From the NCBI RefSeq assembly GCF_030704535.1, contig NC_081818.1, positions 26,983,501 to 27,047,500 of the forward strand: DNA of 64,000 nt, written 5' to 3'. The notes beneath the pieces are model-generated. The model was given only the letters and a program-made list of their open reading frames with translations. It ran no database searches and had not been told where the DNA came from. Every line of letters begins with the position of its first letter. Position 1 is the first letter of the stretch. A program made the position numbers and the translations under genes. Of the stretch, positions 25,219 to 64,000 are shown piece after piece. The stretch is from Vitis vinifera (lineage: Eukaryota; Streptophyta; Magnoliopsida; Vitales; Vitaceae).

Positions 25219-25220
<2 letters not shown>

Positions 25221-26266
25221 TGTGGTATATTCAATTTTTATATAAGGTGGGGAAAAATAATATATGAAATAAATAATTGGTATATTTAATTTGATTTAAA
25301 AGTACTTTTGTTTAATTTTATTAAATCATTTGGCATTATATTTAATATAAATTATAATTAGTTAATTATATTTAAATATAATAAATTATATTTATTTAAA
25401 ACAAATAAAATATAAAATCATATTTGAAAAAACAAATAATATAAATTATTATATTAATTAATTATTTTTTATACACTATAATATAAGTGATATATAATAT
25501 CATATGTATGCAAGTTCAATTTAAATTTAAAAATTTATTATATTTTTATTTTTTATATATATAATAATTTATTCATTATAAAAATGTAAACAATGTAATG
25601 TAAATAAACAACTAAAAAAAATATCTCGATTGAGTTTTAACTTTAAGCTTAAAATTATAGTTGGTGACTATGATATTGAATTTTTTTATTTTTTTAAATG
25701 GTTAAACCCATATTCGCCAATTATGATTTTAACCACTTTATAATTTTTTCTATATTTTATTTTTACAATGAAAGATAAAAATATGCTTAATAATTATATG
25801 AAAAAAAAAGGTAAACTAAAACTTCTTTTTATGATTTTTGACCTTAATCTCAAAAATAAAAATGCACACAATTGATGAGTGTTAATTTCCCAATTTAAAT
25901 TTCATTTAAACATTTTTTGGAAATAAAATAATTTTAAATACTATGCCATTTTTAACTTTTACTATCTAATTTTAAGTTATATCCTTATAACTTGTTCTCA
26001 TTTGTTTATCTCTTCATTGGTAGATATAAACCGGTGCTACAAATGGTTTCTTGGATTACAGCACATTATCCTAATTAAACCGATGTTTATTGCCCTTTCA
26101 TGATCCGATTTTGATCAAATGATACAAACTTAGGTGGTCTCACTGAGGCGATTAGTGGTTAATCAACCTAATAAACACCTAAAGACACGAAACCGAACTG
26201 GTAGAAATTCAGCTGAAGAGCCCATGTTATACACTCGTGCTGGATTCCTCTCATGGCGATCAATGA
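25219..26266. other. AT-rich spacer between GDSL copies A and B
   Basis: About 1 kb of A+T-rich sequence with many TATA and TAAAT runs. No open frame of note, no splice-supported exon and no recognised element were seen. Confidence 0.6.
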
Positions 26267-27806: not shown

Positions 27807-30800
27807 AAACACCTTTTTTCACCTACTTATATCATGTAGAGCAGAAGCTTAGTTGATGAGCAAGGATCTGTCAATCTATATATCTTCAATGGCTATAGAA
27901 AAAATGACCCGCTCACCTTCCCTTTGGCAGCATGAATCAAGATCATTTGCAATGCTCTGACACATGCGTTTAGTTATTATTATCCTCTTCCAGAAGATTT
28001 GATTTGGATATTTGGGAAAATACTACATTTACAGATTAATTGACATGGTACCTTAAAAATTAAGATTGCTTTTGAAACATTCACGGGTTGGCATCTAATT
28101 TTATTTTATTTTTTAATAATTTTAATGCTTGCGGCTTATGTGCACATTAGTCAAACAAGTTGGTATGATTTGTACGTACATTTTAAAAATTAAATAAATA
28201 TTTTCTAAGTTTTTAGTCAAACAAGGCAACCCTTGTGCTATGGACCTGCGACCTTAATAATATTAAAAATTAAATAAATATTTTTTAAATATCCGAATGG
28301 GTTAACTTTAAATTAATATTCAAACTAAACCCATTTAATTTTTGGTTTGTTTTTTAACTTGTTTAACGGATAGTTCATGAAGAAGAATAAAATAATGAAA
28401 ATGTTTTTTGAAGCACATAGTAGCAAGTAGCTACTTATTGTCTAAAAAAGGATTAGAATGTGTTTTATAATAATTCTAAATCGTGTTTTCAGTCTCTTTA
28501 ATATTTAAAATTTTTTATTTTTCAAGTATTAAAAAATCTATAAATATTTTCTAAAATCACTCTCAAATGCATTATTACGCTTTAACATTAAGGTTTGAAA
28601 AGAAAAAAATGACCCAAATTGTTACCATTAGAGATTGGCCTAGAGATGGTCCTTACTTAAGATGATTTCCGTTTTTTTTTTCTTTAATTGGAATATGAAA
28701 TTAAAACCAAAATCAATTTTTTGAAAGACTAATATCAATATTATAAAAAATTTATTAAAAATAAAAATTCTTTTTATATGAGTTAAATAGGGTTTCTAAT
28801 AATTTTTTTTTGGAATTTTGTTTAAAATTCTTTGAATAAAATCTTCTAGAGTTAGGTTTAAAGTTGATTGATTTCATGCCCATTTCCATAATCGACAAAA
28901 ATGTGATAATGTTGTCACTTTCCATTGACCTGAAATAATGTGTATTATGATCACTGTCTCTGACTCTCTTATATGCAATTCCCATGTCATATAAATTTGT
29001 TATCAAGGTCTTTAACCATTGATTGCTTTGTAAAAGCACTTTGAAAAAGTAGTTTGGAACTTTGGAATCATTGAAGAAAAACACCCTTTCCATCTTCTTG
29101 TAGGCAAAGACATACACATCTTACTCATGCACTGCTCTTTCATATATTCTTATCAATTGTAAATTATAAGGTTTTTGAAATTACATGTTCAAAGGTGCCT
29201 AAATGTTTGGTTTTTCCCTTTCTTTCCTTTTCCATTTTTTCCCTCGTGTTGCTTGAAATTTGTGTCTAGGAAAAGAAATAGTTTGTGAGTGTTTTTGTGC
29301 TTTGGCAATTTTAGGCAAAATTTTAATTTTATACTCTTAATTTAAATGCTTCAAATCCTTTCTCGTACTCTTGTTATTTCAAAAATAGTTTTGACCAAAA
29401 ATACTTAAGAAAATGTTTAGAGTTTTGAGGTAATGAATGGATTCAAACACAACCAATCAAGTTTAAATTATTATAAGTTTATTCAAAATGGGGTTGGAAG
29501 TTATCAAAATTCTTGTTTAAACTCGAGTTTTAATCCATCCATGAACTATTATCCAAAATATTTCAATTTTTGGATTGATCACATTGTATAAACTTTTATT
29601 TTTATACTTTGATCTAAATCATGGGTTAAATTTAAAACCCTATTATTTGACTCATTTTGAAATGAGGGATTGGTGGTGAAGAGGGTTGAGTGTGCCTTTT
29701 CACATTCAAGGAAAAAAAATGCATGACATCAATGTAAGAAAAATAAAAATATATAATTATTTTTATATGCTTAAAACATATTTTAAAACTAGTAATTTAA
29801 CATATTTTCTAATACCAAAATTTATGACAATAGCAATAAGTTTATAATGATTAATTAATAATTAATTAAAAATTTGATAATTGGGTAATAATAAGAATTT
29901 CTTATTATATTTTATTTTCGAGAAAATGTTGAAAATTTTTTAAGCTAAGTTTCATTAGTGCATCTTTAGATTTATGGATTCATGATTAAAATGTGATTTA
30001 ATTATTGACTTTAATTCATTAATTCTTGGGTTTTCAATTTGGGAGGAACATCAAATCTTATATTTAATTTTTTTTTCAAAATTAATTAAAATTATGAATT
30101 CTAATGGATATTTAGATAGTATAAATTATTTTTTGAAAAGAATTGTTATTGAAATATTGTTGATATATTTTGATTTTGTTTTATTTAAGTTTTAGAACTT
30201 TTGGGTTTGTTTTAGATTCATCTCTCATGCAAATTAAATGACTTCTATATTATTAGTCTTGGTTCTTTAGTAAGAATTTGTGATGCCAATGAAGGGTTGA
30301 TTGTCATGATAATGCCCTAGTTGTGTGGATGACAATGTAAGAAAACTATGGAGGTGGGTCTTCTGTTGTCCTCTGCATTTCTTTACCTTCTCAACCATCA
30401 GTCCTCAAATCCCTGGGACTTGTGTAGATGATGAGGCTATAAAGAGGACTGGTTCTTGTCTTTCACATCAATACCCAATGTGCAAAGACCTGCCAATCAG
30501 GCTGCAAGTGAATGGTGAGTCATATGTTTAGGTTTGATTTCACAATATTAGCTACTCAAGTTAAAATCTAAACTACTAAAGATATGTATAGTGAGATCCA
30601 TGTTGTTGAGCAAGGGTAGAAGCAAATGGGATCAAGGTATGAGAGTAAAAACAAATGAGATTATGATATAAACGATGAGACTTGAAAATGTATACGTGAC
30701 AGTTAATGATGTCTTTTTGGTATCTACCGAAAAAAGTATCATTCGATGTTGTAGATTGATCTCAAAAATACTTGGAGGCATTTTCAATTTCTTTGGCAAA

Positions 30801-31361
30801 CTGGAGATTGTGACCAATGCACATCAATCACCTCCAAGGGAAAATGTTGTTAGATGGATATGAGACCAGTCATACAAAGAAAATGTCAAATGTCAATAAA
30901 CATTAGGACAGGGTTCATGTAACTTCGAGAAGAGAGCTGGAGACAAGAAAGCAGAGACTCATAATCCATGTAACATGGGAGCTTTAGGGTAGACCACGGG
31001 CCACCTGAGTGTGTAAAAGGCTTTATCATAAGTGCATGACCAGCAAGACCTTGCTGCACTAGTCTTTCCTTTGAGGTTAGCAATTTGGTTCTTGAATGAA
31101 GCAATTACAGATGAAAGAGCAATTGGGAAGGAAGCAGAGCAGTTGCTCTGCCTACAGACTCATTGATCATGCCACCATTATTGTTGCTTCCATTGTCTGG
31201 TTTTGATCCAAGGATACAAAAAGCCTCATATTGAACTCATTTGTTTGTTAACCTTAACACCATGACATAGAAACGAACTGAGATATTTTCCTACACCCAA
31301 GGTATTCTGTGTGTTCAAGCCCTTATATGAGTAGTCTTTAAGTAAACATACATAGGAATGA
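27807..31361. other. AT-rich spacer between GDSL copies B and C
   Basis: About 3.5 kb. The part 30420-31220 matches the 3' flank of copy A (see 22566-23729). A minus-strand open frame at 28755-29117 (120 aa, Lys/Asn/Phe-rich) resembles nothing I know and looks like chance in AT-rich DNA. The rest shows no gene. Confidence 0.55.
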
Positions 31362-32886
31362 TCAGAAGTGATAAGGCTTGTGACAAGCTTGGGCGATTGG
31401 AAGTGAAGAGTCCGACAGTGAGCCATTGAGTATATGATTAGCAAACCAATGATTCGCCGCCTGAGAGTAGTGCACACCATCCCAGCTTATATACGCCGAG
31501 GGACTTGCACAAGAACTGCCATACACTTCAGTTCCATTTATAATTGCCTTCTGCCCGCACCAAACATTGTAGTCATTCACACGATTCCCACAGCAGATCT
31601 TCAGTGGATCCACAAATCCTGTTCCAAAAAGCAATATAAATGAGAACTGCAGTTCAATGCTGATAGAAATTCAATACTGGGTTTGTTTTGAGGATGGTCA
31701 CCTTGTCCCTTTGCATCACTTATTAACCCATACTTTGCAGCATAGAGATCAACGTATGTTATGGAAGCTTGTGGGAGCTGCGCCCTTAGCCTCATCACTC
31801 CATCCTTGAGCTGCTTATTGAACTCCACAGCAATCTCATTCTGAGCCTTGTTGCAGCCATACTGGTCAAGCATGCCTGGTGGTGGATTTCGGATGTACAT
31901 TACTGCTACAGGCAAGCAACCAATAGGGCCTGTGTTATGTATCCAGAATGTCCTAGCTCCTTCTTGATAGAGATGCTGTCAAATTCAAGTAATCAAAACC
32001 CTAATCCCCTTCTGTTGGTTCCAGCCATGGCTACATAAGAAAGGGTTGAAACTTACTTGGACAGCAGCTGTAAACTTGTTGACTATATCCGGGATAGAAG
32101 CTCGGAGTTGGCCATAGCTCTGTCGGAAACCAACAGAGAGATCATTTTGCCCAATATCAAACGTGTAAAGAGCCTTTGGGAAGTCCTCTGGCCTCGGGAG
32201 TTTGTCTCTGTCAGAGGGTGACTTTGCTGAAGAAAATCATGAACAGATAATCAGAATTTGGGACAAGATTCATTTTTTGGGTTTTGGGAGGAGGTAGTAG
32301 TTACCTTGAATGTAGAGATCCCTGGTGCGTGCTTTGAACTGGTCGAACTGGGAAATCTGCATGTCAAGGAAGAATGGGCTTATACCATACTGATATATGG
32401 TTTCATTGGGCCTCAGAATGGTTGATCCTCCCGTTGCGAAATTGGCACCATGCCGGTAATTTGCTCCGATTGAATCCAGGTATGCACTCAGGTATGGCAA
32501 CCCCAGATGCTCAGCTTCCCAATGAAAACCAAAATACAAATTTTCATTTACTCAAGGAAACAGAAAACATGTAATTTTATTCATCTGGGTCAAAGATCAA
32601 ATAATGATTTTGATTTACCTATGAAGTCTATGAGGACACGCCCATCACTGTCCCTCCCAGCCGGCTTGTGGAAGAAGTTCTCACCATACGGCGCTGAAAT
32701 CGGAAGAAACGCCGCAGATATACCACCAGTGTCTGAATTGGAGTCGCCGAAGTTGTAAATCGCCGGAAAACCACAGCTGGGCAACCCCATCCCAACCTCA
32801 CCCCCCACACCCAACACCCATGCCACCAAAATCCCACCTAACAAAGCTCTGAAACTCTCCATTTTCATCCACATTTCACTCCTCAT
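31362..32886 (-). CDS. GDSL esterase/lipase (tandem copy C)
   Basis: Five exons at 32619-32886, 32305-32514, about 32058-32226, 31702-31975 and 31362-31618, about 392 aa. It has a signal peptide ([18 protein letters not shown]), block [13 protein letters not shown], the DIGQND block and the [16 protein letters not shown] block, so the catalytic set is complete. Gene order, strand and intron positions are the same as in copy B, hence tandem duplicates. By my count exon 3 is one base shorter than in copy B although the protein aligns throughout; this may be my counting error and the frame there needs a computed check. A TATA-like TTTATATAC (near 32905) sits very close to the first ATG (32886), so translation may begin at a later ATG (MWMKMESF or MKMESF). 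The substrate is unknown. Confidence 0.85.
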
Positions 32887-40594: not shown

Positions 40595-45375
<4,781 letters not shown>

Positions 45376-46774
45376 CTCTATTAAAAGGGAACAAAACATC
45401 AGAAATCTTTCTAAACCAGGAATTAATACCGAATCAACAAATATCATCAAATTTGAGGAGATTAATTTAGATCTGGAGGAAAGAGATTGGAATTGGCGAT
45501 GAGGAAGGAATGATCACCTTGTGGAAGATGATATACAGAGATCTGTGAAGGCTTTTGGCAGGGTGCTAAAAGGAAAGAATCGACATTGGAGGTCTGAGGA
45601 GAAAATGACAGAGAGACAAGGCGGTTTTTCGGTTTCACTTCGGTATGGACTATGCACGCAAAGAGCGGGAAGCAAAGCAGTTATAGGATTGCCACGTGTT
45701 CAGCTCGGGTACATCCACGTCCCCAAGTCAATGTTGATGTGGGATTTCTATGCTCTAGGGGATGCATCGAGTAACAAAATGGTCTCAAATTTCAATCTAT
45801 TTTCTATATTTTGTTAATATGTTTTAAAAATAATTTCTATTTGTAATATTTGATTATTTTTTATATTTATATAATTATTTTTTAAATAAAAGAAAAAGTA
45901 TTTTCTGATTTTTGTTTTACAAAACATGATTTTTGGTTTTTTGTAATGAAAAGACATAAAACTGTTTTTGGAAACAGGTCCAAATATGACCATATATTAT
46001 GGCTTTACAAAACATTAAAAAAATACCATGTGTACGAATTCTTAGATCTCTCTAAAATAACGACTAAATTACAGTGATTATACCTTGGTGTTTGAGTCTG
46101 GCCCTTTTGAACAGAGCATGATTAATTTTTATTTTATTTGGTGCTTTTTTTTTATATATACCTTTTACACATGGAGGTTCTGCACTTTTCGTCGGGCATT
46201 CTTACTAGCTGTTTGCTTATTCCTCGTGAATGCTCGGGTTCTGAGAGAACCCAAACAGCTATACAACAGTTGTGGAGGAAGCTCGGCCAGTGCGAAAGGG
46301 CCAAAAGGAATTTACACCAGAAAATGTATGTGCAAGAGTATTTGTCAGTTCATAAAAGAAATGCCAGTCTACTTACGAAGCGATACTAATTACTTGAAAA
46401 CCCACCCAATGAATACAAAAAATGTTATTCAAATAACGCATTTATAGCTTAACTCATGCCCCACTGGTTCTTCCAGATAAGGCTGTATCCCTATATGGCT
46501 GCATTCCTAATCACTTGTCTCTTTACATGCTGTGACTTTTTCTCAAAAATTATGGAATCTTGGTCCTAAATGCCAACTCCAACTCAACAGAGGTCCTGGC
46601 ACCCCCACTCTTTTTCATGGGTACTAAGTTGTTGTTGCTCCCCTGCAGCAGCTGGCCTGCCTTAAAGAGACCGAAAAAAAAAAAATCAATAATGGATTCC
46701 ATGACGAACTAGAGTGAGAACGAGAGAAAAAAATAAATAGGCTCAGCACATACCAGGGCAAAAGGAAGCAGATT
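45376..46774. other. Spacer between UKL and the PMT9-like gene
   Basis: Holds the UKL promoter and 5' leader and the 3' region of the methyltransferase gene. The part 45820-45985 is AT-rich with AAACATGATTTTTGG and CTGTTTTTGGAAACAG segments, a motif style also seen at 58020-58320, perhaps a decayed inverted-repeat element. No gene is supported. Confidence 0.5.
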
Positions 46775-49700
46775 TCAAATTGTTGAAACCTCCTCCCATT
46801 TCTTTCTTGCAATTAAAACTCTTTCATCACTGGCAGAAAGAACATCAATCCTTGGTTCTACTTCTATTGACCAGCCATCCCACCTTAATGCAATCAAGAA
46901 CTTCTGTATATAATTTATGATAGAGGGTCTGTCCCTTATAATGACAAAGCCATCTGGCCGTAGTATCCGATCCATCTCAATTAGTAGATCCTCTGAACTA
47001 CAGCCATGTTCCTCAATCTCTGAGAACACTTGCCAGGCATGAAGTAGATCGTAGGTGCGTGGGTATGTAGAAAATGATTCACACCTGTAAATATATTAAG
47101 CAGAGCTCACAGTCAAAACTTAAAATAGAAAACGACTTAGAAACTGAATAGGGTAGAACCAGTGGCACTCCACCTTATATGATACTACAATCCATGTTAC
47201 CAGATAATCAAATAAAACTAGGTGAAGCAAAAGCAGAAGCAGAAAAAACTCGCAGCATCTATCACCATACAAGTCCCCTCAAACAGTCTAATTCAAGCTA
47301 GATTAGTTTACTGATCAATTAATTAATTCTCAATGCTACCATAGGCTCGTGCTTTTTTGACTAATTGGATACTAACAAAACTTTTCTGTGGATTCCGTAC
47401 ATTCTCTGATATGTGCTTTTATGGCATTTCCATTGTGTAAAGTGAAAGAGCAGTGATCTGAATCTGAGACCAGACACAAGATTTTTGCAAATAAATTTAT
47501 AAAAAAAAATTACATTCTTGTGCAAGAATCAAGATCATCAACAGGAAAGACTCAGGACATAAGATATGCATAAAGATATCAAAGGCTATTGAGGATGAAA
47601 AAAAGGTGTCAAGGGCTGCGCTAGTGGGATCAAAAGCATACCAATCATGAACTGTTCCAATCAAGCCTCGATCATATATGATCTTCAGTTTGGCAGATGC
47701 ATTAACAGGAGCAACATTCATCACCCAAACATCTTTATCTTTAAGAGCAGCAGCAAATCCACCAAGGTTTGAGTTCATATCCATGACATTTCTGAAGGAG
47801 TCCTTCTCTACAACAGACTTCATCTGCTTCCAGTACTCAAACACTCTAAAATACCAAATGCTCTGCATTACATGAGTCATATAATGACAAGAAGTTTAGG
47901 ATTTGTAACTAGAGACTGAAAATAAGAAGGCAGGAGAAACAGAAAAAATATAATAGTTCTATCATGCACTGCCTTTTCATAGTTCTAGAAACTTAGTGTC
48001 TTCTTGAAATTTCTGAAACTTACAGTGTCTTCTTGGAATTCCTCAGCACTGATACCAAATTCTTCAAGGCGAGAGGGTGCAGTGGTAAGCCTTTGTGGCC
48101 AAGGAACTAATCCACTCCCTTTTTGTCTGTGCACCTCTGTTTTCTCAAATAGATAGAAAGAAAAAAAAGTGAAAATCACAAACCAAAAATTATTTAAACC
48201 ACCAAAGGTAAAATGTTAAGAACAAAATCACTGGGAAAATTACTGCAGTTACAACCTCAGTCAATCAAAATGACAAGAATCAGGAAGTTCCATTTGAAGT
48301 TAGCCAGTAAAAATTGAGAATCCATGACCCAACCAAATGCATATGCAGGAATGTTTATCAATCTATGTGTATCCTATTCAAACTGAAATGTGCTCAAGAA
48401 CTTCAGAATACAATTGATTACACTGTTTATAAAAGTTGACACCTAATTAGTTTCCAGGTTAAACAGGCCATTAGCAGTCCCATTTTGCACAGAAGTCTAA
48501 GACGTGTGGGTAACTTTATGGAGGAGGATAAGAGGCAGGAGATCATAACCATCTGAAAAGGCATAACATGAATGGTCTATCTGACCGTGGCAAGCCCCTT
48601 ATGAAGTGCATTCCATGCATTCAACAGGATTTTCCAAACAACCACCCATGTATATAATTAGTAAAAATATTCACCTTTCTTTTGAATATCTTTTAAAATT
48701 ATACAGAGAAGATGGTCATAAAATCACTCTTTTCATCCTCACTTCATACCAAAAGAAGATGGATAGAAGGATTTCTAGAAACTAACCCCCAATTCAATTT
48801 TTGTGGTCAACATGCTTCCTTGCTCAACAAAACTTGCAATTTTAGTCAAAGGTTCAATTACAGGGAAATGCTTGTCCAAAAAAATATAGATTAGCAAGCT
48901 AACACTTTATTTGCTTAACAACAGTCAGCAGACTAGCCTATCAAAAACAAAATAAAAACAACAGTCAGCAGAATTGTATTTGGCTTTGCCATCTCCAACC
49001 AATTTGTACCAGGCTTCAGTTTTGGGGACTTGGACCATAAACTAACTTTTATCATCGAGCACACAAGAATGGAGGAGTTATATATTGGAAGCATACAATA
49101 TCAACAAAAGCAACCAACAGAAGGGGAGGGAAAATCAGTGCCAGAGAATTATGGTACCAAAATATTTGAAAGGCACAATATGAGAAAAGAAAAAATAAAA
49201 TAAAATAAAATCTACCAACTACCATAAAATCAGTGAAACATCATTATAAACTATCACAAATATGAGTGATCCTTACTTCCTGAGTATGGTGTGATGCATG
49301 CCTTCATGAACACATTCCAAGAGGCGTCAGGATCATCATCGGAACTGCACAGAGGGGGGAGAGTCCCAGGGTCTCTCTTTGCAAAACAGCTGTTACTTGT
49401 CGGCTTCGCCCATATAACAGTCTGGTCTTTCTTTGAAACAACTCTCCAGCACATCCTTTTCAGCAGATCAGATGTAGCATTCCAAATCCTTCGATTTACC
49501 GCATCCCGTGCATAGGCTTCAGGAGAAGAGTACACAAAATACCCACCTGGTCTTAGTAATCTATCCAGTTCTAACAAGAGAATCCCATCTCTTTGAAGCC
49601 AATCAATTCTACATCGTGAACAATGAGCCATTTCAAATGATCTGCTTGGATAAGGAAGTCTCTTTGTCCCCAAGACACCAAGAGTAGATGGGATCCCCCT

Positions 49701-51265
49701 CTCCAGTGCAAACTGTATTTGATTCTCATGAACATCATTGGGCGCAAGAGACATAGCCATAATGTTATGGGGGAGAAGATAGGCCCCAAAACTTGCAACC
49801 CCACAACCCACATCAAGAACATTCCTGATGTTTCCCCCATTGTTGAGTTTATCATCAGGAAACTTAAGCATCTACATCAATATGACATTGAACAGTAAGG
49901 ATATGATGAAAAAAATAGGAGAATAAAACCAAGTCAAATATAGGGTTAAATTATTGCATACCCTCGCAAGAGCAATGATGTACTTATCAGCTCCATTATG
50001 GAAATGGGTTCCACCACCAGGAAAATTTATTTTATCTCCATTCACAACCATCCAATTCTGATCCGATTTCTCTGATGCAAGATGTGTGTGTGGTATATTC
50101 ACCTTCCACACTTCATCCCTGCTTGCCGGCCATCTAATAGGTATCTGGTATCCTAATAACAGCCTAATCAGAATAAAAACCAACTGAAGCCAAATCAAAT
50201 GAACACTGGCATAAGAAAAAACTGTCACCAACCTTGTAACCAATTGGGGGTGGAATCAGGCAATTGTAGCGCCGCTCTGGAGGTGGACAATGCCGCTCAT
50301 AGTGCTCCATTAATGCCAAATTGGGCTTCAATTTCAGTTGGTATATGAGATTTCTATCCAAGCAAGGTATCAACTCCGAAAACCTCATATCACAAACCTG
50401 TTGGAGACAGTGAAAACAACAATTTTTGCCTAATCAAAACTCCAGAATTAAAAATTAAAAAAAAAAAAAAAAAATCAATTAATTGCACAGAAAATGTATG
50501 CTTTTTACCAAAACATAAAACAAAATAACTATCAACTAGCAAACAATATAAATCACTAAATATCGGTCTGCCTTTGTCTCAACTGATAACACAAAATGTT
50601 AACAAAAAAGTTGAAGTAAGTACAATTTGTTGTTACATACGTATATAATTTTAGCAGAATAGGCATTTCAACATAATCAACAAAATGCTCAACAGATACA
50701 AATTGTTACATATCCGCATGTTCTTTTCCAAACCAAAAATACTACAACGCCCATAACGATTTTGCCAGATCAAAAATACAATATAATTAATAAAAATTTG
50801 AATAACTACCAGTTGTTCAATAAAAGTGTGCCTTCACCAAATCAAAAACACGAAGTAGATTGTAAAATATTTCCCTGTTTCTTGAATCTCAATAAAGGCC
50901 GCAAAAAATTCCTTTTTTTTTAATACAGGCATACCGAAAATTAAAAGCAATTAACACGGTTTGCCGAATCAAAAAAAAAAAATCAATTAACGAAAATGCA
51001 AAGCAATGCATACAGGTATGCTTTTGGGAACTTCCGGGTTGTGCTCTTGATCTTCGAACAAGTCATCGAAATCACCGTCTTCACGTACATATCCGCCGAG
51101 CACGGGATCGACGCCGTCGGCGGTGGCATCGTCATCAGCTCTCCGGGAACCCGGAGCGAGCAAAGATCCGCAGTACAGACAAATCAAGCCCAGAAAAACA
51201 ACGAGTCCGACCAGAACGTACTTCACTAGCTTAGTAACATGAGCAGGCTCGCTTTTGTGCTTCAT
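46775..51265 (-). CDS. PMT9: Golgi S-adenosylmethionine-dependent methyltransferase, PMT9-like (DUF248)
   Basis: Seven exons: 51014-51265, 50233-50397, 49962-50144, 49277-49871, 48024-48136, 47642-47862 and 46775-47084; 1839 nt, 612 aa, all phases consistent. Type II Golgi membrane protein: a short cytosolic tail, a membrane segment ([19 protein letters not shown], about 15-33), an acidic stem, then the DUF248 catalytic region. Landmarks are [34 protein letters not shown], the SAM motif [48 protein letters not shown] and [15 protein letters not shown]. The sequence closely follows my memory of Arabidopsis PMT9 (At5g14430), also about 612 aa. The family methylesterifies pectin-type polysaccharides (QUA2 is the best-studied member); the acceptor for PMT9 is not settled. 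No defects are seen. Confidence 0.95.
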
Positions 51266-53928
51266 CTTTGGAGAAGGAGGGATTTGACGCGACGTCGCTT
51301 CACAAGCCGAACCCTAGTAGCAGATCCGTGAGAGAGCGACGGAGCAAGCAAAGCCTCCCGACTCCGAGAACATCGCTACTAGAATTTGATTGTGTGCTTT
51401 TCGCGAGTATGTCTGAGTTCAGACACGACCCCGTGACTGACCGTTGATGTGCCGTGGCAGCGACGGTGTCCGACGCATTTCACGGGAGTACGAGCGACGA
51501 GCGAAGAGCGAAGAGCCTGATGATGATTTGGTCGTAGAAATTAATGAATTATATACGGTCTGATTGGCCAAGATTGGAGGTCTTCGCCATTTCTCTCTGA
51601 CTTTATCTGATATCAGCCAATGAGATTTTAGATCAGTTTGCCAGCCAGTGGAGTTGAGCGTGTGTGATTGACAGTCTTGCACGAATTTCTGGGGCACGCA
51701 GTTGGTGGGTGCCCAACTGTAAATGAGGACATTGAATGACGGAAATACCCTTTGGTTTTGTCGATGGAAGCTTGGACCATTATGGGTGAGAAGGTATTTT
51801 CATTAAAAATACTGTTTTAAAATAAATTATTAACGTACGTTTATTTTTAAGTTATAGGAAGTAACTCATATTTAATATCTTTTATCATTCATAAAGAAAA
51901 ATGGAAGAATTTTTAAATTAGAAAACGTTTTTGAAAAAATTTTAGACCCTTGTAAAAATTTACAAAACACTTTTAAATATAAAAAAAAATCACTTATAAT
52001 ATTAAAAATCAGTTATAATATTCTTTTTTGGAAAAAAAAATATAGATAATTCTTCTAACAACACTTTAACACTTTATCATAAAACATTTGGAGTAAAAAC
52101 TTTTTTTAAAATGTGTTTGAAAATATTTTTACTTAAAATATTTTTAGTAAAAATATTTTTTCATCAATTATTTTTTAGAAAATTAAATACCAAGTAATTT
52201 TTTAAAAAAGACACTGTAAATGATTTTTTTAATATTATAAGTAATTTTTTAATTTTTTTAAAGTATTTTCTAAGTTTTGTGAAACACCTAATATTTTTTT
52301 AAAAAACACTTTTTATATTAAAAACATTTTTTAAAAATCAGTTGTCTATCGGATGGTTAATTATAAAGTTCTTTATTTTCCTTATTTTAGCCATAACTCG
52401 TACTTAAAAAAATCTCTTTAAACGTTCATCTCTATAAGTTTTTGTATTCTATATGGAAATTAAAATACAAAATTTTAATTAATTTTTTAAAAATTAGTAT
52501 CCATAACGAGTTTTTATATTTTATATAGAAATTAAAACACAAAATAGGAAATATATCCCATCTGATGCCAAATATTTAAATTTTATTTTTGTAATTTTTA
52601 TCTTCCTCCAAGTTGGAATCCTCAATCCCTGTCTTTACCCAAAGAGACGTGTTAACATGATGGGCATATTGAATAGAGTGGGTATCAAGGCTTTTGAATT
52701 TTGAGCATCCCCCTTTTTTTTAAAGAGGTTGGTAAGAAAAGTCCAACTACATGAAACAAAATCTGATTCCGTACGGGATGGAAAGTGACTGGACTTTCAT
52801 GCATGATATTTACTAATCATGGCCTTTTGTTGATGCCCAATTCTTCCAAAATCAAGTATGGGCTTCGAAAAGGGCAAAACCCAGTCCATCCAAACTCCGG
52901 AAGAAAAGGAAGAGGAGTTTTGGGTCAAAATACCCCTTTTATGAAAAAATAATTAAATTCAATCTCTTTGTTAGACTTGTGTTAATAATGATCTTTTTAT
53001 TACCACGTAGAATCATAATATTAAAAAATATATATTTTTTAATTTAAATTGAAGTTTCGATTGTCATACGAGTTTTCAATTGTTAATTACATAACCTAAA
53101 ATCTGTCAATTAAGAGTTTATTTTTGAACTAAAACCTCAATTGACAATTATGATTTCATTTTTATGGAAGAATGATGTGACACTCATATGATAAAAATAT
53201 ATCACATTAAATATAAGTTTTTTAAAAGGGTTTAAAACTTTTATTTTTGTGCTTCTTACCCAAAATTTAAGGAAGAGATTATTCAATTTGATTCCAAAGG
53301 TATGGTGTATGAAAAGAGAATGGGTAGAAGAAGAAGAAGAAAAGTATAACGATTTACTTATTTTATTTGTTTTTTGAACTTTTTTTTCAATAATAATTTT
53401 TTAAAAATAAAAAATAAGCTTTGTTTGGTAACTATTTTTTTTTATTTTTTTATTTAAAATAATGCATTAGACAAAAAAACAAAAAAAATGTTTTTAAGAA
53501 AAAAAAATTTTAAAGAGCATCTTTTATTTATTTTTACTTATTTCCTTATTATTGTTTTAAAAGTTAATTATATAAATATTAAGAATAATTAATTAAGTTG
53601 AAGTCTCAATTGTCATACGAGGCTTTAATTAAAAAATGAAGCATCAATTATTAATTATAGTTTCATTTTTTAACCTAAATATCAATTACCACTATAGTTT
53701 CATTTTGTAACCTAAACCTCAATTTGTCAATTGGGGTTTTATTTTTTAATTGAAGGTTTAAAGTGCATTTAAGTGTGATTTTAGAAAATATTTTTAATTT
53801 CTCTAACACTTGAATAATAAAATTTTTTAAATGTTAAAAATATTGAAAGTGATTCCTAAAAGTACTATCAAACAAGTTCTTAATTAGTAATTATAACTTT
53901 ATTTTTGTGAAAAGATGATGTGGCACTC
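51266..53928. other. Upstream region of the PMT9-like gene and AT-rich duplicated DNA
   Basis: 51266-51700 is G+C-richer and holds the promoter and leader of the methyltransferase gene; the open frame on the minus strand at 51419-51697 has no recognisable product. 51780-52600 is very AT-rich with runs like AAAAATATTTTTA. 53030-53330 is repeated further right (see 53590-57890). No gene is supported. Confidence 0.55.
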
Positions 53929-54834
53929 TGTAGACCCCCTGTTTTAAACCAAGTGTATTGGTTCAAGGGTACGTTTTTTTTTATTATTATTGCCTTCTTT
54001 TATTATTTTTATAAGTTGAAGCAAGGTGGCATTTCAAGGATGATCCCGGAGTGGGATTTAATGAGGAGGGGACCTCCCTTTCGGCATGAAAGCAGCTACG
54101 AGAGATGGGATGTGCAGCAAGTCAAGATGGCAGGGGCCATGCTGGTGATTGGAGGGCCATGCTGCTGATGCGAGGAACAGTAGGGCAAGTAATGGTTTGC
54201 CAAAGAAGATAGGAACAGGGGAGGATATAAAAAAGGGGAGAGGAGAGCTGCTGAGCAAGGATTTTTTTGGGGAGCATTGTATCTTTTCTGGAGGTTTTCT
54301 TTGAGAATGACGAATCCCACTCGAAGCTAAGGGTGTGCATGGTTTGAGCAGAATTTTTCCCAGGTATGTTTGTTTTTTAGTCGTTTTGCTATGATCTCAT
54401 TCACACTTCTATTCTTCTTTATTTTTTTTTTAATTTTTTTTATTTTTATTTATTTATTTTTTTTGAATTCCTAGACATTGTTTGTGTTGATATGGACATC
54501 ATGATCACCTATTCGTTTGCTGAATCTGATTGCTGGTTACCTTGCTCTGTTTTAGTCGTATTCTTAGGTTCTTTGTTTTTCTCTCTGTAAGCAGCTTGAC
54601 TCATTCTTGAGTCTTATACTTGGTGAACACATGTATGTTTCCATGTTTGTCCCACCTGTTCATAGCCCACTGATTTTGAAACATGCAACCTGGTTCTCTT
54701 GGTTCATTCCAATTCTATATTTTCATGCTCTGTTTTGGATGCCTTTCCTGGTCTCTGATACTTATTTATGAAGAACGGGATGGAAATTTATGCTGAGAAA
54801 AGATATCCTGAACCTTTTCTCTTTCTTTGTCGTC

Positions 54835-55260
54835 AATATTGTGAGTGGTGGGGTGCGTGCTGTTGGAGGGATTGGCAAACCCTTGAGTGCAAGACCAGTT
54901 ACACGGGTTCTATTGGCTGAGCTTCTCGGTCAATATTTGGTTTCCTGTAGGGTGGTCATCAGGGACAAGGAAGCTTGACACTAGGTATTGCTACAATTGG
55001 TCACGTTGGGCTCCATTTTGAGAATCAAAAGCTAACGAATTTCAGTCCAAGGGCAATGAAAATGAAGATTCGACTGTGATTAATCTAGCTCAAAGCATTC
55101 GCAGTGCTTTCTTCCCAAGTTTCAGCCAGGATGGGAAGTTTCTTGTGTTTTTATCCGTAAAAGAAGTTCTTTGGATTCTGGAGCACATTCTGCAGCTGTT
55201 TCACTTCACACAATTGCTTGGCCTATCAATGGGAACCCTGCCCGCCTACATAGTTGATGT
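54835..55260 (+). pseudogene. Captured, degenerate fragment of an acylamino-acid-releasing enzyme gene
   Basis: Within the solo LTR. The plus strand shows segments typical of the N-terminal beta-propeller half of plant AARE (acyl-peptide hydrolase): VRAVGGIGKPLS near 54858, a WSSGTRKL-like stretch followed by YCYN near 54955-55000, and VINLAQSIRSAFFPSF then DGKFLVFLS near 55075-55155. The order matches the enzyme. The peptidase domain is absent. It is one part of a dead element and cannot make the enzyme. Confidence 0.75.
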
Positions 55261-55369
55261 GATTCCTTATTGTGATGGCTGCTAAGAATGAGGAACCTAG
55301 AAAGAGTGATGAGGAGTTAAGACCGGCAGCTTCTCCTTGGTGCTATTTGCTATTGTGGTGACAGTGAGC

Positions 55370-55960
55370 ACCATGTTGATCCTAACTTTCCACCCTCAAC
55401 CCTCTCACCCTCTCATCACTCACGTTTCCCAGCCACTCTGCCTCTATACCCATATCTCACCCCCAATGCATGTCATCACACTCCCACACTCCACTATACC
55501 CGTCATTCATCTATCCATCTCTCCCTCTAAGTCTTCATACCCATTGTCATCCATTATAGCCATCATGCCATCCCACTAAACCCATTTTCCTATTTCCTCA
55601 TATCCATCTTTCATGCCTCCATGCGTATCACTTCTTTTTAACACCACCATACCCCCCACATTTTCACCATGCATAGCCACCTTTCATACCCATCTCTTCC
55701 CCTCTTGGCATGGCCATGCACGACCACATTGAACCCATTCCATGCACACCACATGCATGTGTGTACTCATCCCACCACCATTGGACTCACTTCCTCTCCT
55801 CAATTCACTCACCACCTATTCCTCACCCATTTATCTCTCATCTCTATGCCCATCTTTTTCTCCTTACCCATCTTTTGTTCCCGCCACCTTTCCTCTCTCT
55901 ATCACCACCTACCCATTTTCTCACCTCATGCCCACTATACTCAAGGCCAATCTCATGCAC
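55370..55960 (+). repeat. C/T-rich low-complexity tract in the LTR
   Basis: About 590 bp on the plus strand, almost without G. It is made of degenerate CAC, CCCAT and CTC words, giving open frames rich in His, Pro, Ser and Thr that have no protein meaning. It separates the two captured gene pieces. Confidence 0.8.
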
Positions 55961-56170
55961 TGGTAGATATATATGCAAGGCATGGAGATGAAGCTGTTGG
56001 ATGTTTCTTTGAAATGCTCAACTAAGGGATAAAAGCAAATGACGTTTGTCTTCATGGGTTTGTTTACAATGTGTATTCATGCAAGGTTAGGTTGGTAAGG
56101 AGCTGTTTCAATGCTATGGAAAAGGAGTTCATTCACTGGCATCTAAGGCCCCACGTGTATTGGGTTGATG
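55960..56170 (+). pseudogene. Captured, degenerate PPR-protein fragment
   Basis: Within the solo LTR. The segment reads ALVDIYARHGDEAVGCFFEM near 55958-56018, then IKANDV, and RSCFNAMEKEFIHWHLRPHV at 56098-56158. This is the pattern of the last PPR repeats of a PLS-class plant PPR protein (LVDMYAR-G ... AL--F--M ... PNDVTF ... G---F--M ... PHVEHY). It is unrelated to the PPR gene at the left edge of the window. It is degenerate and part of a dead element. Confidence 0.65.
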
Positions 56171-57890
56171 GGAAAATGGGTTTGTGGCTTTTTTTTTATT
56201 ATTTGTTTGTTTGCTTTTCTTTAAGTACACGCCTGTTTTCCATGCTAAGGTCATTCCTTTTTTTTTTTATCATTTTCTTGGTTTTTTCCAACTTTTGATG
56301 CGAAAGATTCATTTTCAAAATTTTATTTTTAATTTAATTATTTAAAAAAACTCCCATTAAAATATATATATATATATATATGTATATATAGTTTTCAAAA
56401 CTTTGACCTCTCAAACTTTAATTATTTTATTTATTTATTTATTTATTTTTAAAATTTCATCCTTAAAATAATTTTTCGGGTTTCCACTTTTCGAAATTTA
56501 ATTTTCCGACATTCTATCTCTAAATAATTTTTCAATTTTCCAATTCTTAAGTTCACTTCCCAATTTTCACAATTATTTACCTAATCATTATTACTATTTT
56601 TCCATTCGTTTATCCATTCACTTATTCTTTTATTTAAAATCTCATTTCTAAATAACTCTTCAAACTTTCAATCTCAAATATTTCACTATTCACGGTCATT
56701 CGTTTAAATATTATTCTCATTATTATTATTATTATTTCATTCATTTATTTTACAAATTCCAATAATTAAGGTTCAATTTTTCAAGATTCCGTTTTCTAAA
56801 TTTAATTTTTAATCTAAAAAATTCCACTATTCACATTAAGTTGTTTAATGATTATTTTCGTTATTATTATTATCCTATTCATTTATTTATTCACTTATTC
56901 ATATATTTAAAATCTCATCCCCAAATAATTTCTCAAAATGTCAATCTCTAAATTCAAATCTCCAATCTCTAAAATTCTATTTTTCGCAATTATTTACCTA
57001 ATCTTTATAATTTCATCATTATTATTATTCCATTTATTTATTTATTCACTCATTCGTTATTTAAGATTTTGTCTTTAAATAATTCTTCAAAATTCCGATT
57101 CCTAAATTTAGTTCTTCGAAATTTCAATTCCTTTCAAATTTAATTTCTAAAATTCTCATTCTTGTATTTAATTTCAAAAATTTCAATTTTCAAATAAATT
57201 TCAAAAATCCGGTTTTCCCTTGAACAGTTTTTAATTTCTATTTGGTGACGCATGTGATATGTTTTGTACTCTTTATTATACACTAACCTCACTTCTTGAT
57301 AACGCCTCATGGATCACTGCCCAGGTACGCATCTACATCCGCTCTGGTCATTTTCGATATGCATGTTTAGATTCTCACGTGTGCATGATCACTCTGAGTA
57401 TTCATTGATTTCCTCATCAATTGTCACGATTACTTCATTTTATTAGTAGAGACCCGTTTTTAGGGACTTAGAAGGGTGCTACGGTTTTTACCGTACCTTC
57501 CTGATAAGTAACCTGACCCCCGAACCCGATCCGGTTTTTCACATACCATCTTTTCCAAAACAAGGAGTCACACTTAGGGTTTTTCTTTCTTATTTTGTTT
57601 GCCCTTTAAAAATAAAACAAAAATAAGTGGCGACTCCAAGTCATTTTCTTAATCAACAAAAATCATTTTTTCGAAATTAAAATCGAGCTCGCCTTCGAGT
57701 GGGAAACGCATGAGCCAAAATGCGGGGTCTACACACTCACATGTCTAAGTTTTTTAAAAGGCCTAAAATGTATATTTTTTTATGCTTCAACGGACGATTT
57801 TGACCCAAAATTCAAGGAAGAACCTATTGAATTGGATTCCAAAGTTACGGTACATTAAGAGAGAATGGGTAGAAAAAGAAAGGGAAGGTA

Positions 57891-60720
57891 TAACAATTTA
57901 TTTAAGCAAAAACTAAAATAATAGGTTTTAAAGAATATAAAAATAATAAAATATCATTAAATCAAAATTAGATTTTTTTTTATTTATAAAAACTAAAATA
58001 AAACCTAGATAACAAGTTTCAGCCTATTTCGTAACTTTTCGAAAACAGTTTCTATGAATAATTTTTTAAAACTATTGTCTAATATTTTGTAAAATAAAAA
58101 CCTAAAATGTTTTTAATATATTTAAATATATTTTTAAAATAATTTTTATGTCCAATGTTATATTTTTTTTTTTATTTTATATGTTTTATAATTATTTTTT
58201 AAAACAATCTCAAAAAAAAATTAATCAAAAATAGTTTTTCATTGCTAAATATATATTTTTTATTTTATTATTCTAAAAAATAAAAAACTATTCTCAAAAA
58301 TAGTTATAAAAAGAATCTTCGTTTTTCAAATTATTGTTTTCTTAAGCGCTAAGTTATTTCAATGAAGTCAACCACAAAGTATTGAAATCAAAACTAGGTA
58401 GATTAATATTTTTAACTAATAAAATAATTATATACAATGGCTTTCCTTTTCATGAGTCGAATAATATAATACAAGCATTAGGCAAAGCGATTTTCAAATT
58501 ATTATCATTTATAAATGCTATTTGATGACATCATAGTGAATGTGACATTTCCATAAACTTCTTTATTACGATGTATTAGTCAAGTAGAAATTTGTTTCAT
58601 GTGGAAAAATTTAACGTAAATATTGTCATAACGACTAATTTATCTAGTCTTGGTCTCTTTCTTTTTTTTCTTTTTAAATTAAAAATTATTTGTAACTTCT
58701 AAGTAAAATATAATAATTCTTCTATAAATAAATAAATTTACCCAATCTCTTTAAAATAAAATTTTTTTAATGCCTCAAATTTTTTTAAATCATAACTTTC
58801 CAATATAATGAGAATATGTCTTTTTCATATAGAAACTCTTTCAATAATTATCATTATTCTATATTGACTTTTCCTTTTCCTGGATGACCTCCCTTTTTCT
58901 AATCAGGCTTAATAATAATAATAATAATAATCAAAACTATAAATTATTTTATTTTAAATATTTTTCTATATTTTTTTATTAGTTTAAAATAAAAAAGTTT
59001 GAATCAAATCCCATGTTTTATTTTCAACCAAAATTTTGGTTTTTTCGTCTTTTCCTATTCTTTCCCATCGACCAAATGGTTTGCTGAACTTATAGGAGAA
59101 AACTTAATTTTTAAATTCTTTAAAACTAATCTAAATTGGTATTGAATTGCAATTTTGCAAGAGTTACCCAAATCCCCAATGGATATGAAGGACAATAAAT
59201 TGTCATATTTCCATTCACCTTATATAATACATTTTCATACAAAAGATAAAAGATGCATTTTGTAAATGTCTTTTTAGATAGTAACTCTCCTTATTGTAAC
59301 TCTTTGGTATAATGAAAAGATGTCTTTTTCAATAATAACCCCTTTAATAAAAACTATTATTTTAGATTGACTTTTCATTATCCCATACCATTTCCTTCTT
59401 TTAATTAGACTTAATGATAATAATAATATTCAAAACTATAAATTAACTATTTTAAAATAATTATACTATTTTGTTTTAAATATTTTCCTACTTTTTTATT
59501 AGTTTAAAATAAAACTTAAAGATAAAGTAATTATTTTAAAGAAATAATGATAATGTTATAAAAATTCACTTTAGTTAAATATTAAGGTTGAGAATAAAAT
59601 TATATTTTTAAAAGCATAATTTTAATATTATAAATATTCATTATATTAAAAATAATATCGTAAAACATTTTTACCAAAAAACACCCCTATAAAAAAATTA
59701 ATTAATTTAATTTTCTTGTATAATACGTTTTTATATGGAAGATGTCTTTTTAAATGTTAACTCCGATGTCTTTTCAAATGTTTACTCCACTTATAATGAC
59801 TTTGGGAATATGTCTTTTCAAATGTTAATTCCTCGTTATGGTGGAAAGATAATTGAAGATGTCTTTTTTACATAGACTTTTCATTTTCCCATCATACTTT
59901 TCTTCTTCTAATAATAATAATAAAAAAAATGTCTTTTTCAAATAGACTATTCGTTCTCCCATCACATAACGAGCGTTACCTTCCAAAGAGATGTCTTTTT
60001 AAATGTTAACTCCGATGTCTTTAATTCCTCGTTATGGTGGAAAGATAACTAAAGATGTTTTTTTTACATAGACTTTACATTCTCCCATCATACTTTTCTT
60101 CTTCTAATAATAATAAAAAAATATATATATCTTTTTCAAATAGGCTTTTCGTTCTCCCATCACATAATGAACGTTGCCTTCTAAAGAGATGTCTTTTCCA
60201 ATTTTCCACCACAATAAACATTATCTTCTTCATTTAAGAATAATAATAATAACAATATATGTTTTTTTTTCAATTGGACTTTTGATTCTTCCTCTGCAAT
60301 AAGCATTACCTTCTAATAATAGTAATAATAATAATAATGTTGTATTTTCCAAATAAACTTTGCATTCTCCCACCATAATGAACATCACCTTCTACTACTA
60401 CAACTACTATTGCTAATAATAATAATAATAATAATAATAATTTGAAGATTATTATTATTATTTAAAGCTATAAATTACCTATTTTTAAATAATTATATGG
60501 TTTTATTTTAAATATTTTTCTATTTTTTCTTAGTTTAAAAAAAAAACAAAGTTAAAGTAATTATTTTAAAGAAATAATGATAACATTATAAAAATTCATT
60601 TTAGTTAAATATTATGGTTGGGAATATAATTATAATTTTAATATTATATATTCATTAGTTAAAAAGTAATTTCTTATATAAACTAAGGTTTCAATAAGAT
60701 AATTTTATGTTTTTTACTTA
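57891..60720. repeat. AT-rich region built of local duplications
   Basis: No gene is seen. A 190-250-bp unit is tandemly repeated at about 59757-60007 and 60008-60200, both with TTCCTCGTTATGGTGGAAAGA and TTCTCCCATCACATAA; shorter relatives follow to 60410. A second duplicated block, about 59420-59640 and 60465-60660, shares AAGTAATTATTTTAAAGAAA and ATAATGATAA. A third, more diverged relative lies at 58795-59000. TAA microsatellites occur at 58907-58930 and 60414-60442. The part 58010-58320 has loosely complementary ends and may be a decayed inverted-repeat element. Confidence 0.65.
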
Positions 60721-61425
60721 GAAGATGACAACTGGAGCAGTGGAGCGGGTAGCGGCTTGCGGGAGAAGAAAGAAATAGGGGATGGGTGAAAATCTTAAAA
60801 TGGAGCAAGAGAGGTTGAAGAAGGGTTCGAAGACAAATTGGAGACAACTTAAGGAAGAGAGAGGGTGAGCTGTTTGAAATGAGGGGGATGTCCGAAAACA
60901 GAGAAGGGGCACAACTGAACAAAAATGAGGAAAACTAAAGGAGAGGAGACAAAAAGGAGCTTCACTGGAGGAGCTCAGGTATGGCCGTTATGGGTACCTT
61001 TGCTTTGGGATTTCTTTATTTTCCTTCCTTGCCATTGTTGATCTTGAGCATCGTTTGTCGTGGATTGGATCTTGTTGAATCTAAGCTCGCTTCACACTTG
61101 CTTTGTTTTGGTCTCTTTTTAGTTTCTTTGATTTCTCCTATAAATGAGTGAGATATTGGTTTGTCTTCTCAGAATTTGATATTTGTTTAATTGCACAAGT
61201 GCTCACCTTTCGTTCCTCTCGTTTGTATCCATTCAGTACAACATGAAAGTGAGTTTAGTTTACTTTTAGAGCATGCTCTGTTTCTTAGAATCCGTCCAAA
61301 GCTTCCATCAAAATCCTAGATTTATGCTTGCCCATGAACCCCACTTAACCCTATTCCTCAAACCCCCTAAGCCCCTCAACCTTCTTTTCTTCTCCATCAA
61401 TCTTAATACCAAAAGTGAAATAAAA

Positions 61426-61870
61426 ATGCCCTCAAACCCTCCAAAATCCTCGATTGTGGTTCATAGAATCAACAATCCTAATAGCATTACCACTACCACC
61501 ACCTACTTATGTCGCCGCGATTAACAATAATACTTCAACCATGCCTCCTCACAAGCAAGTTCAGAAGCGGTCTCCTCTAACGAGCGCCACCCAGGCCCCC
61601 GACGTTGTGTCACGCCACCACACCCACTTTGTCGGCCCTAATCAATGTTGTTCCGCCGTCGTCCAGCAAATCGTCGTCCCTGTCTCCACCGTATGGTCCG
61701 TCGTCCGCCGCTTTGACAATCCTCAAGCCTACAAGCACTTCGTCAAGAGTTGCCACGTTGTTGTTGGCGACAACGATGTCGGCACTCTTCGCGAGGTCCA
61801 CGTCATATCCAACCTCCCCGTAGCCAACAGAACCAAAGTGCTCCAAGTAGTTCCTCCTAGGTTGGTGCTA
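61426..61870 (+). pseudogene. PYR/PYL/RCAR abscisic-acid receptor pseudogene (PYL4-6 type), 3' half missing
   Basis: ATG at 61426 opens MPSNPPKSSIVVHRINNPNS, as in the PYL4-6 group. A frame change after the Thr run (near 61500) moves the match to the +2 frame: TMPPHKQVQKRSPL, then HHTHFVGPNQCCSAVVQQI, VSTVWSVVRRFDNPQAYKHF and VVVGDNDVGTLREVHVIS. The ligand-gate loop SGLPA reads SNLPV. Homology then stops near 61853, so the latch (HRL) and the C-terminal half are absent. A stop follows at about 61890. The 5' flank looks like a normal gene leader, so this is a DNA-level copy; intronless structure is normal for this subgroup. It cannot bind ABA or PP2C. Confidence 0.85.
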
Positions 61871-62229
61871 CGTCTTCAAAGGAGTGTTGTGTAGGTGCGG
61901 TGCACCAAGGAGGATGGCCAAAGCGAACAACCACCACTTATCACCACCAACCCCCAACAACCACCCTCACTCTCACAGTCACCTCAACCGATCCCTCCTC
62001 CTCCTCCTTCTCCCACGCCCAAGGTAAGCAACAAACGTGGGGATGTGTTCGCGTTTAATAGGCCGACATCGGAGAGGATCATGGAGTGGGTTGTGAGTGC
62101 CAACAGTACATGGAATGAGTTTGGTTGGGACAATCTCTTGCATGGCATACATGGCCACCTTTGGTGGGCCATTCTTAAAACTCACGTGCCTCTTTCCTCA
62201 TCCATCTTCATGCATGCTGTTAGAAATAT
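61871..62229. other. Unassigned sequence after the PYL pseudogene
   Basis: A plus-strand frame 61895-62242 encodes a Pro-rich stretch and then RIMEWVVSANSTWNEFGWDN and HGHLWWAILKTHVPL. I do not recognise it. It lies where the rest of the PYL gene should be. Confidence 0.4.
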
Positions 62230-63530
62230 GAGGCTAATCTAACCTATGGTAATCACCCTAGAGAAGGGGTGAATAGGGTGATGGTCTCTTTTCGTAAATT
62301 TAAACTATGTGAATGAAGAGACAATTATATGCAAGTATATAATAAGCAATATAAATACAATTGCATATAAATTAAAAGAGTAGGAAAGAGAGAATTCAAA
62401 CACAAGAATTTATAGTGGTTCGACGCAACCCGGCCTACATCTACTCTCCTCTAGCTTCAATCCCGATCTTGAGATTCCACTAATTAAAGGCTTCCAAACC
62501 AAGCCTTCAAGCAATACAATTGGATTATGGTTCCAAGTACCCTTTACACTTCTCAAGAAATACCACACTCTTAAGAAACTTCTTCTCAAATGTTTACAAA
62601 TAAATGATCTCACAAAAATCCTAGCACAAAAACTTTAAGCTCAAATGATATAAGAAAACTAGAATTGAAAGGTGCACTAAGGATATGCAAGTTTTAGAAC
62701 AATTGTACACTCAAAAACACTCTTCCAAGGCTAAAAAATAATAAAGAAAGGTTTGGGAAGGTTAAGCTTTTTAAACAATGAAGATTGGAGCATTTTTATA
62801 GAAGAGAAAAACCAAAATAACCGTTTGGGGGTTCGACCGATCGAGCTAGAGGTCGACCGGTTAACTAGCTGTTAGCATTTAATACTTGGCAGGTGATTGT
62901 TGGGCCTTAACTGGACCTTAATCGGACCTCGACCGGACCTCAAATGGACCTCAACCAGTTGAGGTTCAACCTTGACCTGTTGAACAACCGTTCTGGAAGA
63001 AAGAGAAAGTTTTTTGCACCCTCGACCGGTTGAGCTGGAGGTTTACCCGGGCCTCGACCAATTAAGCTGTGGGTTGACCCAGACCTCGACCGGTTGAGCT
63101 TTCGGTCGACTGGTTCCTCATCTGGTTGAGCCGTTTTTTGGCTCAACAACCAAAATTTTCAACTTAAAACCTTTTAAAACAAGTTTGAAAGACATTTAAT
63201 ACAATGTTTTAGTTGAAAACATTAAATCATTCAATTCTTAAAATATTTAAAACAAAATAACTCTTGAATGATTTTGGTGCATAAGTAAATAATGTAATGC
63301 ATGAAAATCCTAGTGCACCAACAACCTTACAAAGTGATCTTATGAAGTTTGGGTCTTGAAAAACACTTATCTTTGAAGTGGTCTTCTTCTTCATAATTTC
63401 TCCTTGGCTTGATTTGTCTTTGTGATTTGCGACTTTGGAAATCATCTTACCTAATCACACTTAAAATATAATCATTAATTCTAAACTTTGTTTTGTTATC
63501 ATCAAAATAAAGATTAACCAAACCTTGGTT
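62230..63530. mobile_element. LTR-retrotransposon-derived fragment (family unresolved)
   Basis: Contains CACCCTAGAGAAGGGGTGAA followed by TAGGGTG, and ATTTATAGTGGTTCGACGCA then a CCTACATCTACTC word, a combination I associate with LTR parts of plant retrotransposons. No coding domain and no clear ends were found. A 40-bp minisatellite lies at 62830-63130. Confidence 0.5.
62830..63130. repeat. Minisatellite built on TCGACCGGTTGAGC
   Basis: About seven imperfect copies of a 35-45-bp unit with CTCGACCGGTTGAGCT and GAGGTTGACCC words. It is markedly G+C-rich against its surroundings. Confidence 0.75.
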
Positions 63531-63559
63531 TCACACATGTTTTTAAAAAATTGGTTTTA

Positions 63560-64000
63560 AAAAAAAACAAATCTTGTTTTGACTCCACAATTTTTCATCT
63601 TTAGAATTTTTAAGTCCCAAATTCCATTTTCCAATGATTTTCCAAAAATTCCAATTCTTAAATTTAATTTTCAAAACTTCAATCTTCATTTAATTTCCAA
63701 AACTCCAATTCCCAAATAATTTTCAAAATTCCAATTTCTTTTAAATTTAACTTCCAAAATTCCAATCCTTAAATTTAAAATCTCCAATTCTCAAATAATT
63801 TTCAAAATCCCAATTTCTTTTAAATTTAATTTTCAAAATTCCAATTTCTTTCAAATTTAATTTTCAAAACTGCAATTCTTAAATTTAATTTTCATAGCAC
63901 CAATTCTCAAATAATTTTCAAAATTCCAATTCCTTTCAAATTTAATTTCCAAAATCTCAATTTCTTTCAAATTTAATTTCCAAAATTCCAATTCTTAAAT
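63560..64000. repeat. AATTCC-type degenerate repeat tract, running off the window
   Basis: Units of 25-35 bp such as TTTAATTTCCAAAATTCC, AATTCTTAAATTTAATTTTC and AAATAATTTTCAAAATTCC. The same vocabulary fills 56290-57240 inside the 3.8-kb solo LTR, so this is probably part of another LTR of that family. Confidence 0.65.

Follow-up and report, generated by a model that had tools for sequence, protein, structure and literature searches.

In the portions of the literature available to us, several plant LTR retrotransposons are described as having taken up pieces of host genes. The Bs1 element of maize contains pieces of three host genes (PMC13317346), of which only exons are present (PMC4717578), and TRIMs of soybean and Medicago, e.g., GmaRetroS15, carry exon-only host pieces from up to three genes per element (PMC4717578). 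Pieces of host genes were also reported in LTR elements of maize, rice and sorghum (PMC2774510; PMC3726574), and, in the accessible text of the maize survey, pieces from two or more nuclear genes are not reported together in any one element (PMC2774510). Host-derived sequence inside LTRs is known from Cassandra, Helenus and Ajax, where it is 5S rRNA or tRNA sequence and likely acts as a promoter (PMC10886601). Abnormal template switching was proposed for the origin of BARE-2, where it would have occurred in the LTR (PMC13317346), and for complexes of the Triticeae (PMC1950507). Going by the available parts of these sources, exon-only capture by plant LTR elements is already established, and the cases found lie in internal regions.

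The stretch of DNA analysed here (the window) comprises 64,000 nucleotides of Vitis vinifera on contig C14, and the genome searched amounted to 495.6 Mb in 21 contigs. The window includes a solo LTR with TG..CA ends and a 5-bp target site duplication (Table 1). The appearance of its empty site is known, since a diverged neighbouring repeat copy at 53111-53339 aligns across the joined LTR flanks (161 of 245 columns identical). Moreover, a direct repeat with 82% identity is found on both sides of the LTR (53253-53335 and 57798-57880), and the element therefore landed in a duplicated stretch. Elsewhere in the window, frames were noticed by eye which we take to be like plastid EF-Tu (16909-18396), LINE reverse transcriptase pieces (19678-20815), GDSL-lipase pieces (23894-31978), methyltransferase exons (47497-50255) and a PYR/PYL-type ABA receptor (61424-61894).

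Table 1. Parts of the solo LTR, in window coordinates, and host-gene cargo of related LTR-type copies
Feature	Location	Strand	Evidence or remarks
Target site duplication CACTC, left copy	53924..53928	.	
Solo LTR, 3805 bp, ends TGTAGACCCC ... GGGGTCTACA	53929..57733	+	Ends and target site duplication; the same two ends occur in individual LTRs of full-length elements of the family
U3-like part	53929..54254	+	86-94% identity to sibling LTRs L035-L041
TATA-like box TATAAAAAAG, candidate promoter	54226..54235	+	Sequence only
Module X, T-rich	54286..54781	+	Common to LTR-type copies on C4, C10 and two to three places on C18
AARE retro-fragment	54782..55290	+	Five exon parts, four introns absent
102-column match to C1:21275548-21275648	55293..55394	+	83/102 identical
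CAT/CCC-rich stretch	55395..55941	+	Pieces recur in other LTRs of the family
PPR-like piece, weak	55942..56160	+	Pfam PPR E 0.051, below cut-off
A/T-rich part and U5	56125..57733	+	Common to sibling LTRs on C9, C17, C5
Target site duplication CACTC, right copy	57734..57738	.	
AARE, then TPR gene end (C7:966229-966448), DUF2470 gene (C8), C9:1234284, C19:4189665-4190422	C18 (L028)		
AARE, glutaredoxin (C1:26605617), C4:3550021	C4 (L026)		Glutaredoxin Pfam E 1.4e-7
About 960 bases of TPR gene mRNA	C2:4.98M (L056)		Three introns missing
Gamma-glutamyltranspeptidase	C1:26.57M (L057)		PF01019 E 6.9e-19; two introns missing
AKT1-like potassium channel	C15:19.53M (L053)		PDB E 3.4e-12, below the Pfam cut-off; judged by coordinates, lacks one intron

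The initial annotation had placed sequence of an acylamino-acid-releasing enzyme (AARE) at 54835-55260, and the results from DNA searches bear this out far beyond chance. The AARE gene on contig C5 (L031) matches 54844-55051 (E value 1.8e-46), 55043-55125 (E value 4.7e-22) and 55120-55261 (E value 1.5e-34). The borders needed correction, as the spliced alignment to this gene, in five exon parts, begins about 50 bases earlier and ends 30 later than had been given. Over 54782-55261 the identity is 401 of 487 aligned columns, a further 19-nt deletion being excluded from the count. All four introns of the covered stretch (97, 131, about 840 and 255 nt) are missing, which means that capture passed through spliced RNA; this is the result of the comparison with the intact gene that had been proposed as a check. 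Read along the LTR, the donor introns have GT..AG borders, which places the piece in LTR sense. Three lines of evidence identify the piece: the alignment of its DNA with the gene, the sister copies, and an exon of the gene itself, the product of which corresponds to AARE (PDB: 7px8; E value 2.2e-9). The copy in the C18 LTR is better preserved and is recognised by Pfam as APEH_N (E value 8.4e-15). In the window the copy is disrupted by frameshifts and stops and, being frameshifted, is unable to code for AARE; searched alone, it gave only PD40 in Pfam, below the cut-off (E value 0.0045), and only chance matches, AARE not among them, in the PDB. A tblastn search with a stretch of AARE reached an E value of 9e-12 in the window. 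Two further loci, L030 (C9:897500-905500) and L032 (C10:15232000-15241900), are intron-bearing relatives of the C5 gene, the former with a stop in an exon.

The AARE similarity is confined within the borders of the LTR, as had been claimed. The U3 and U5 parts of this LTR co-occur within single LTRs of full-length elements. The element on C7 has LTRs of about 3.67 kb with 55 mismatches in 3637 (98.5% identical) and the target site duplication AGTTG, while the LTR pair on C5 has 20 mismatches in 2952 (99.3% identical) and is adjoined by a gag frame (L040:5193-5999; PF03732, E value 1.4e-11). Both pairs possess the U3 and U5 parts of the window LTR and are free of the AARE cargo. In all seven sibling LTRs compared, the U3 similarity stops at 54223-54254, and similarity to the LTRs on C9, C17 and C5 resumes at 56125. 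The U3 similarity thus gives out at the TATA-like box or shortly after it, where transcription would be expected to begin, and the cargo, which follows, should be located in the presumed transcribed R-U5 part. As the initial annotation had it, the box lies upstream of the AARE piece, here by 556 bases, and its position, together with the end of the U3 similarity, suggests that the piece lies in the transcribed part of the LTR.

Of the other parts of the LTR, 55863-56124 is found at 97-98% identity in LTRs at C15:19535199 and C10:16138670. Module X is in part also present at C7:43633 and C12:23973021; at these two places and on C18, parts of it occur without AARE. Its start is near the splice-donor-like CCCAG/GTATGT, and its T-richness resembles that of a plant intron.

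The same AARE piece is present in a second solo LTR, C1:1637249-1641150(-), which has a different target site duplication, CAAAC. The two LTRs show 73 mismatches in 3792 aligned bases (1.9%), and their AARE parts 4 in 515 (99% identity), so that the piece has been copied as LTR sequence, i.e., as part of the repeat, as was initially surmised. The X/AARE junction recurs in three LTR-type copies, on C4 (L026), C10:25.3M (L027) and C18 (L028), which have the first part of the AARE piece, followed by other host-gene pieces. The C10:25.3M copy has about 5.4 kb of other sequence between most of X and AARE.

Beyond what the initial annotation had described, related LTRs bear spliced pieces of other host genes. 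In total, pieces from nine host loci were traced in ten LTR-type copies: those of the window, C1:1.64M, C4, C10:25.3M, C18:35.65M, C2:4.98M, C1:26.57M, C3:12.89M, C15:19.53M and C10:16.14M, a sample mostly chosen through sequence in common with a locus already found. LTR status is full, with both ends and a target site duplication, in two of the ten. The C15 copy matches at the start and in U5, the C10:16.14M copy at the start and in U3, those on C4, C18, C2, C1:26.57M and C3 at the U5 end only (LTR starts were not found for C4 and C18), and the C10:25.3M copy at a doubtful start only. Within about 1.5 kb, the C18 LTR holds pieces of five donors from five contigs. We take the TPR gene to be ETO1-like, the C4:3550 locus DUF630/632-like, the C9:1234 locus TAF12-like and the glutaredoxin CC-type. 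The TPR gene has sub-threshold TPR hits only in Pfam and none in the PDB; Pfam found nothing in L063, and nothing in L064, where the frame searched contains stops and the result has little weight. No host gene was identified in the LTRs of the C7 pair, C13, C9, C17, the C5 pair, C11, C2:10.05M, C10:23.45M and two on C18, and none could be tied to the segments that the C7/C13 and C9/C17/C5 LTRs have in common with other LTRs. In the copy with the gamma-glutamyltranspeptidase piece, a sense frame (L057:3092-3298:-) has a sub-threshold armadillo-repeat hit (E value 0.0069) and is perhaps a further captured piece. On C12, 458 bases (C12:12481564-12482021) are 98% identical to the gamma-glutamyltranspeptidase part of L057 and, since the match is contiguous, represent a second intronless copy.

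Altogether, 14 introns from six donors are absent and none was seen retained in the aligned stretches: four from AARE, three each from the DUF2470 gene and the TPR gene, two from gamma-glutamyltranspeptidase, and one each from the C19 gene and the potassium channel. Twelve have GT..AG edges that are clean or within a base, one (gamma-glutamyltranspeptidase) has an unclear 3' edge and one is known by coordinates only. The remaining three donors have no intron in the captured part and are uninformative on splicing. Two more short 'introns', each at the extreme end of an alignment with just 11 to 13 bases aligned on the far side, were dismissed as noise. Divergence from the donor is greatest for AARE, at about 18%, and falls to about 2% in parts of the C8 and C19 genes, which suggests that the captures took place at different times, though donor genes may evolve at different rates.

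All orientable pieces are in LTR sense. As a control, every stop-free frame of at least 75 aa in ten LTR interiors was searched against Pfam, counting hits with an E value of 0.01 or less. Hits were obtained with 6 of 38 sense frames versus 0 of 22 antisense frames, numbers too small to settle orientation by themselves; APEH_N, glutaredoxin and gamma-glutamyltranspeptidase are above the Pfam cut-off, while PD40, TPR and ion channel are below it. The Pfam control being weak, it is the introns that carry the sense orientation. Overlaps between the joined partners were found at three of five junctions read, namely GGAAA at X/AARE, AAGGAAGC at AARE/TPR and an imperfect one at glutaredoxin/C4:3550; AARE/glutaredoxin and C9/C19 have no overlap and a few unassigned bases. 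The glutaredoxin piece starts about 39 nt behind a TATA-like box in its gene, close to where the mRNA probably begins.

The occurrence of spliced pieces from further host genes in related repeats suggests that host messenger RNA was taken up by LTRs of this kind on several occasions. We propose as the probable explanation that the cargo was picked up by template switching during the copying of a long R-U5. The AARE piece would then be a spliced mRNA copy in the LTR R-U5 of a large gag-bearing retrotransposon family. Minus-strand synthesis from the primer site behind U5 would first copy the unusually long U5 and R, and reverse transcriptase could jump to a co-packaged host mRNA and then back to the element RNA. 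Host sequence would in this way enter the minus-strand strong-stop DNA and, by normal strand transfer, both LTRs; as strong-stop DNA is presumably copied into both, the cargo would be passed on as part of the LTR. Pieces might be added or trimmed in later rounds and when element RNAs recombine. With glutaredoxin, the enzyme would seem to have copied up to the mRNA end before jumping, and the break in U3 near the putative start site would be expected from strand transfer between subfamilies. Such a model would explain the spliced sense cargo, its place, the mosaics of several genes and the overlaps at three of five junctions. Counting against it are the two junctions without overlap, and the fact that the matches listed include no full-length element in which each LTR has an identified host piece. 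A stretch of 649 bases from the LTR-type locus L060 (C10:23447670-23450901) is found twice on C15, the two copies 15.8 kb apart, so that a single element may have cargo in each of its LTRs. By eye, frames of L060 resemble a DEAD-box helicase, but Pfam and the PDB gave nothing, and it was left out of the donor count. Cargo copies can also be moved between LTRs by DNA recombination.

Spliced pieces would likewise result if processed pseudogenes made by LINEs had been inserted serially into an existing LTR, or if cDNA had served as filler in break repair, with the LTR spreading afterwards. Filler repair fits the short unassigned bases at two of the five junctions, but every orientable piece is in LTR sense, and several pieces abut, with no poly(A) tract in the stretches read; we regard this origin as unlikely. 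Splicing at the RNA level could also have joined host exons to the LTR leader, by exon trapping or read-through, the chimeric RNA then being reverse-transcribed. While the GT-like donor CCCAG/GTATGT near the start of module X and the sense, spliced state of the pieces agree with this, the AARE piece begins and ends within exons, and a single LTR joins genes from five contigs, which is impossible by cis read-through, making such a history quite improbable. That a gene-capturing DNA transposon landed within the LTR is hardly credible, for although Pack-MULEs and Helitrons reportedly hold mosaics of gene pieces, in the available descriptions they carry introns as well as exons (PMC4717578), whereas 14 introns are missing here, and there is no inverted repeat of at least 60 nt in 45000-64000.

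Template switching in R-U5 would also bear on what such cargo means. Cargo in an internal region has one copy per element and is lost on collapse to a solo LTR, while cargo in R-U5 would be doubled, persist in solo LTRs, as in the window, and sit directly behind a promoter. If true, the junctions mark the points at which reverse transcriptase passed from element RNA to host mRNA or back, and if the family captures repeatedly, it would supply transcripts with shuffled exons and perhaps small RNAs directed at the donor genes. We speculate, tentatively and with somewhat less than even confidence, that because of an R-U5 several kilobases long the LTR of this family is a standing trap, an RNA-level counterpart of Pack-MULEs, which would collect and reshuffle spliced host mRNA pieces, copy them into both LTRs and spread transcribed exon mosaics behind a promoter. 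The common retention of donor introns in Pack-MULEs and Helitrons has no parallel here in the aligned stretches.

Serial capture inside the LTR is a new form of exon-only capture; in the open-licence literature searched, as far as its accessible text extends, we found no report of it or of mRNA pieces inside LTRs. With processed capture of the Bs1 and TRIM type, the grapevine family shares the absence of donor introns, but its cargo is not in the internal region. The cargo of Bs1 reportedly is internal. Moreover, Bs1 is described as one element making a chimeric gene, whereas in grapevine the LTR itself holds the cargo, which varies from one related LTR to another. The gene-carrying TRIMs, in the descriptions available, are short with internal gene pieces, while those of grapevine are held in LTRs of 3-4 kb. 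Elements of the maize survey have at most one nuclear gene according to its accessible part, in contrast to the five donors of the C18 LTR, and the descriptions compared for maize, rice and sorghum do not separate LTR from internal position. In BARE-2 and the Triticeae complexes, the foreign part, as far as described in these sources, is another retrotransposon, and in grapevine it is spliced host mRNA. Finally, Cassandra, Helenus and Ajax are portrayed in the available text as very short elements with small-RNA sequence, whereas the grapevine LTRs are long and hold pieces of protein-coding mRNA.
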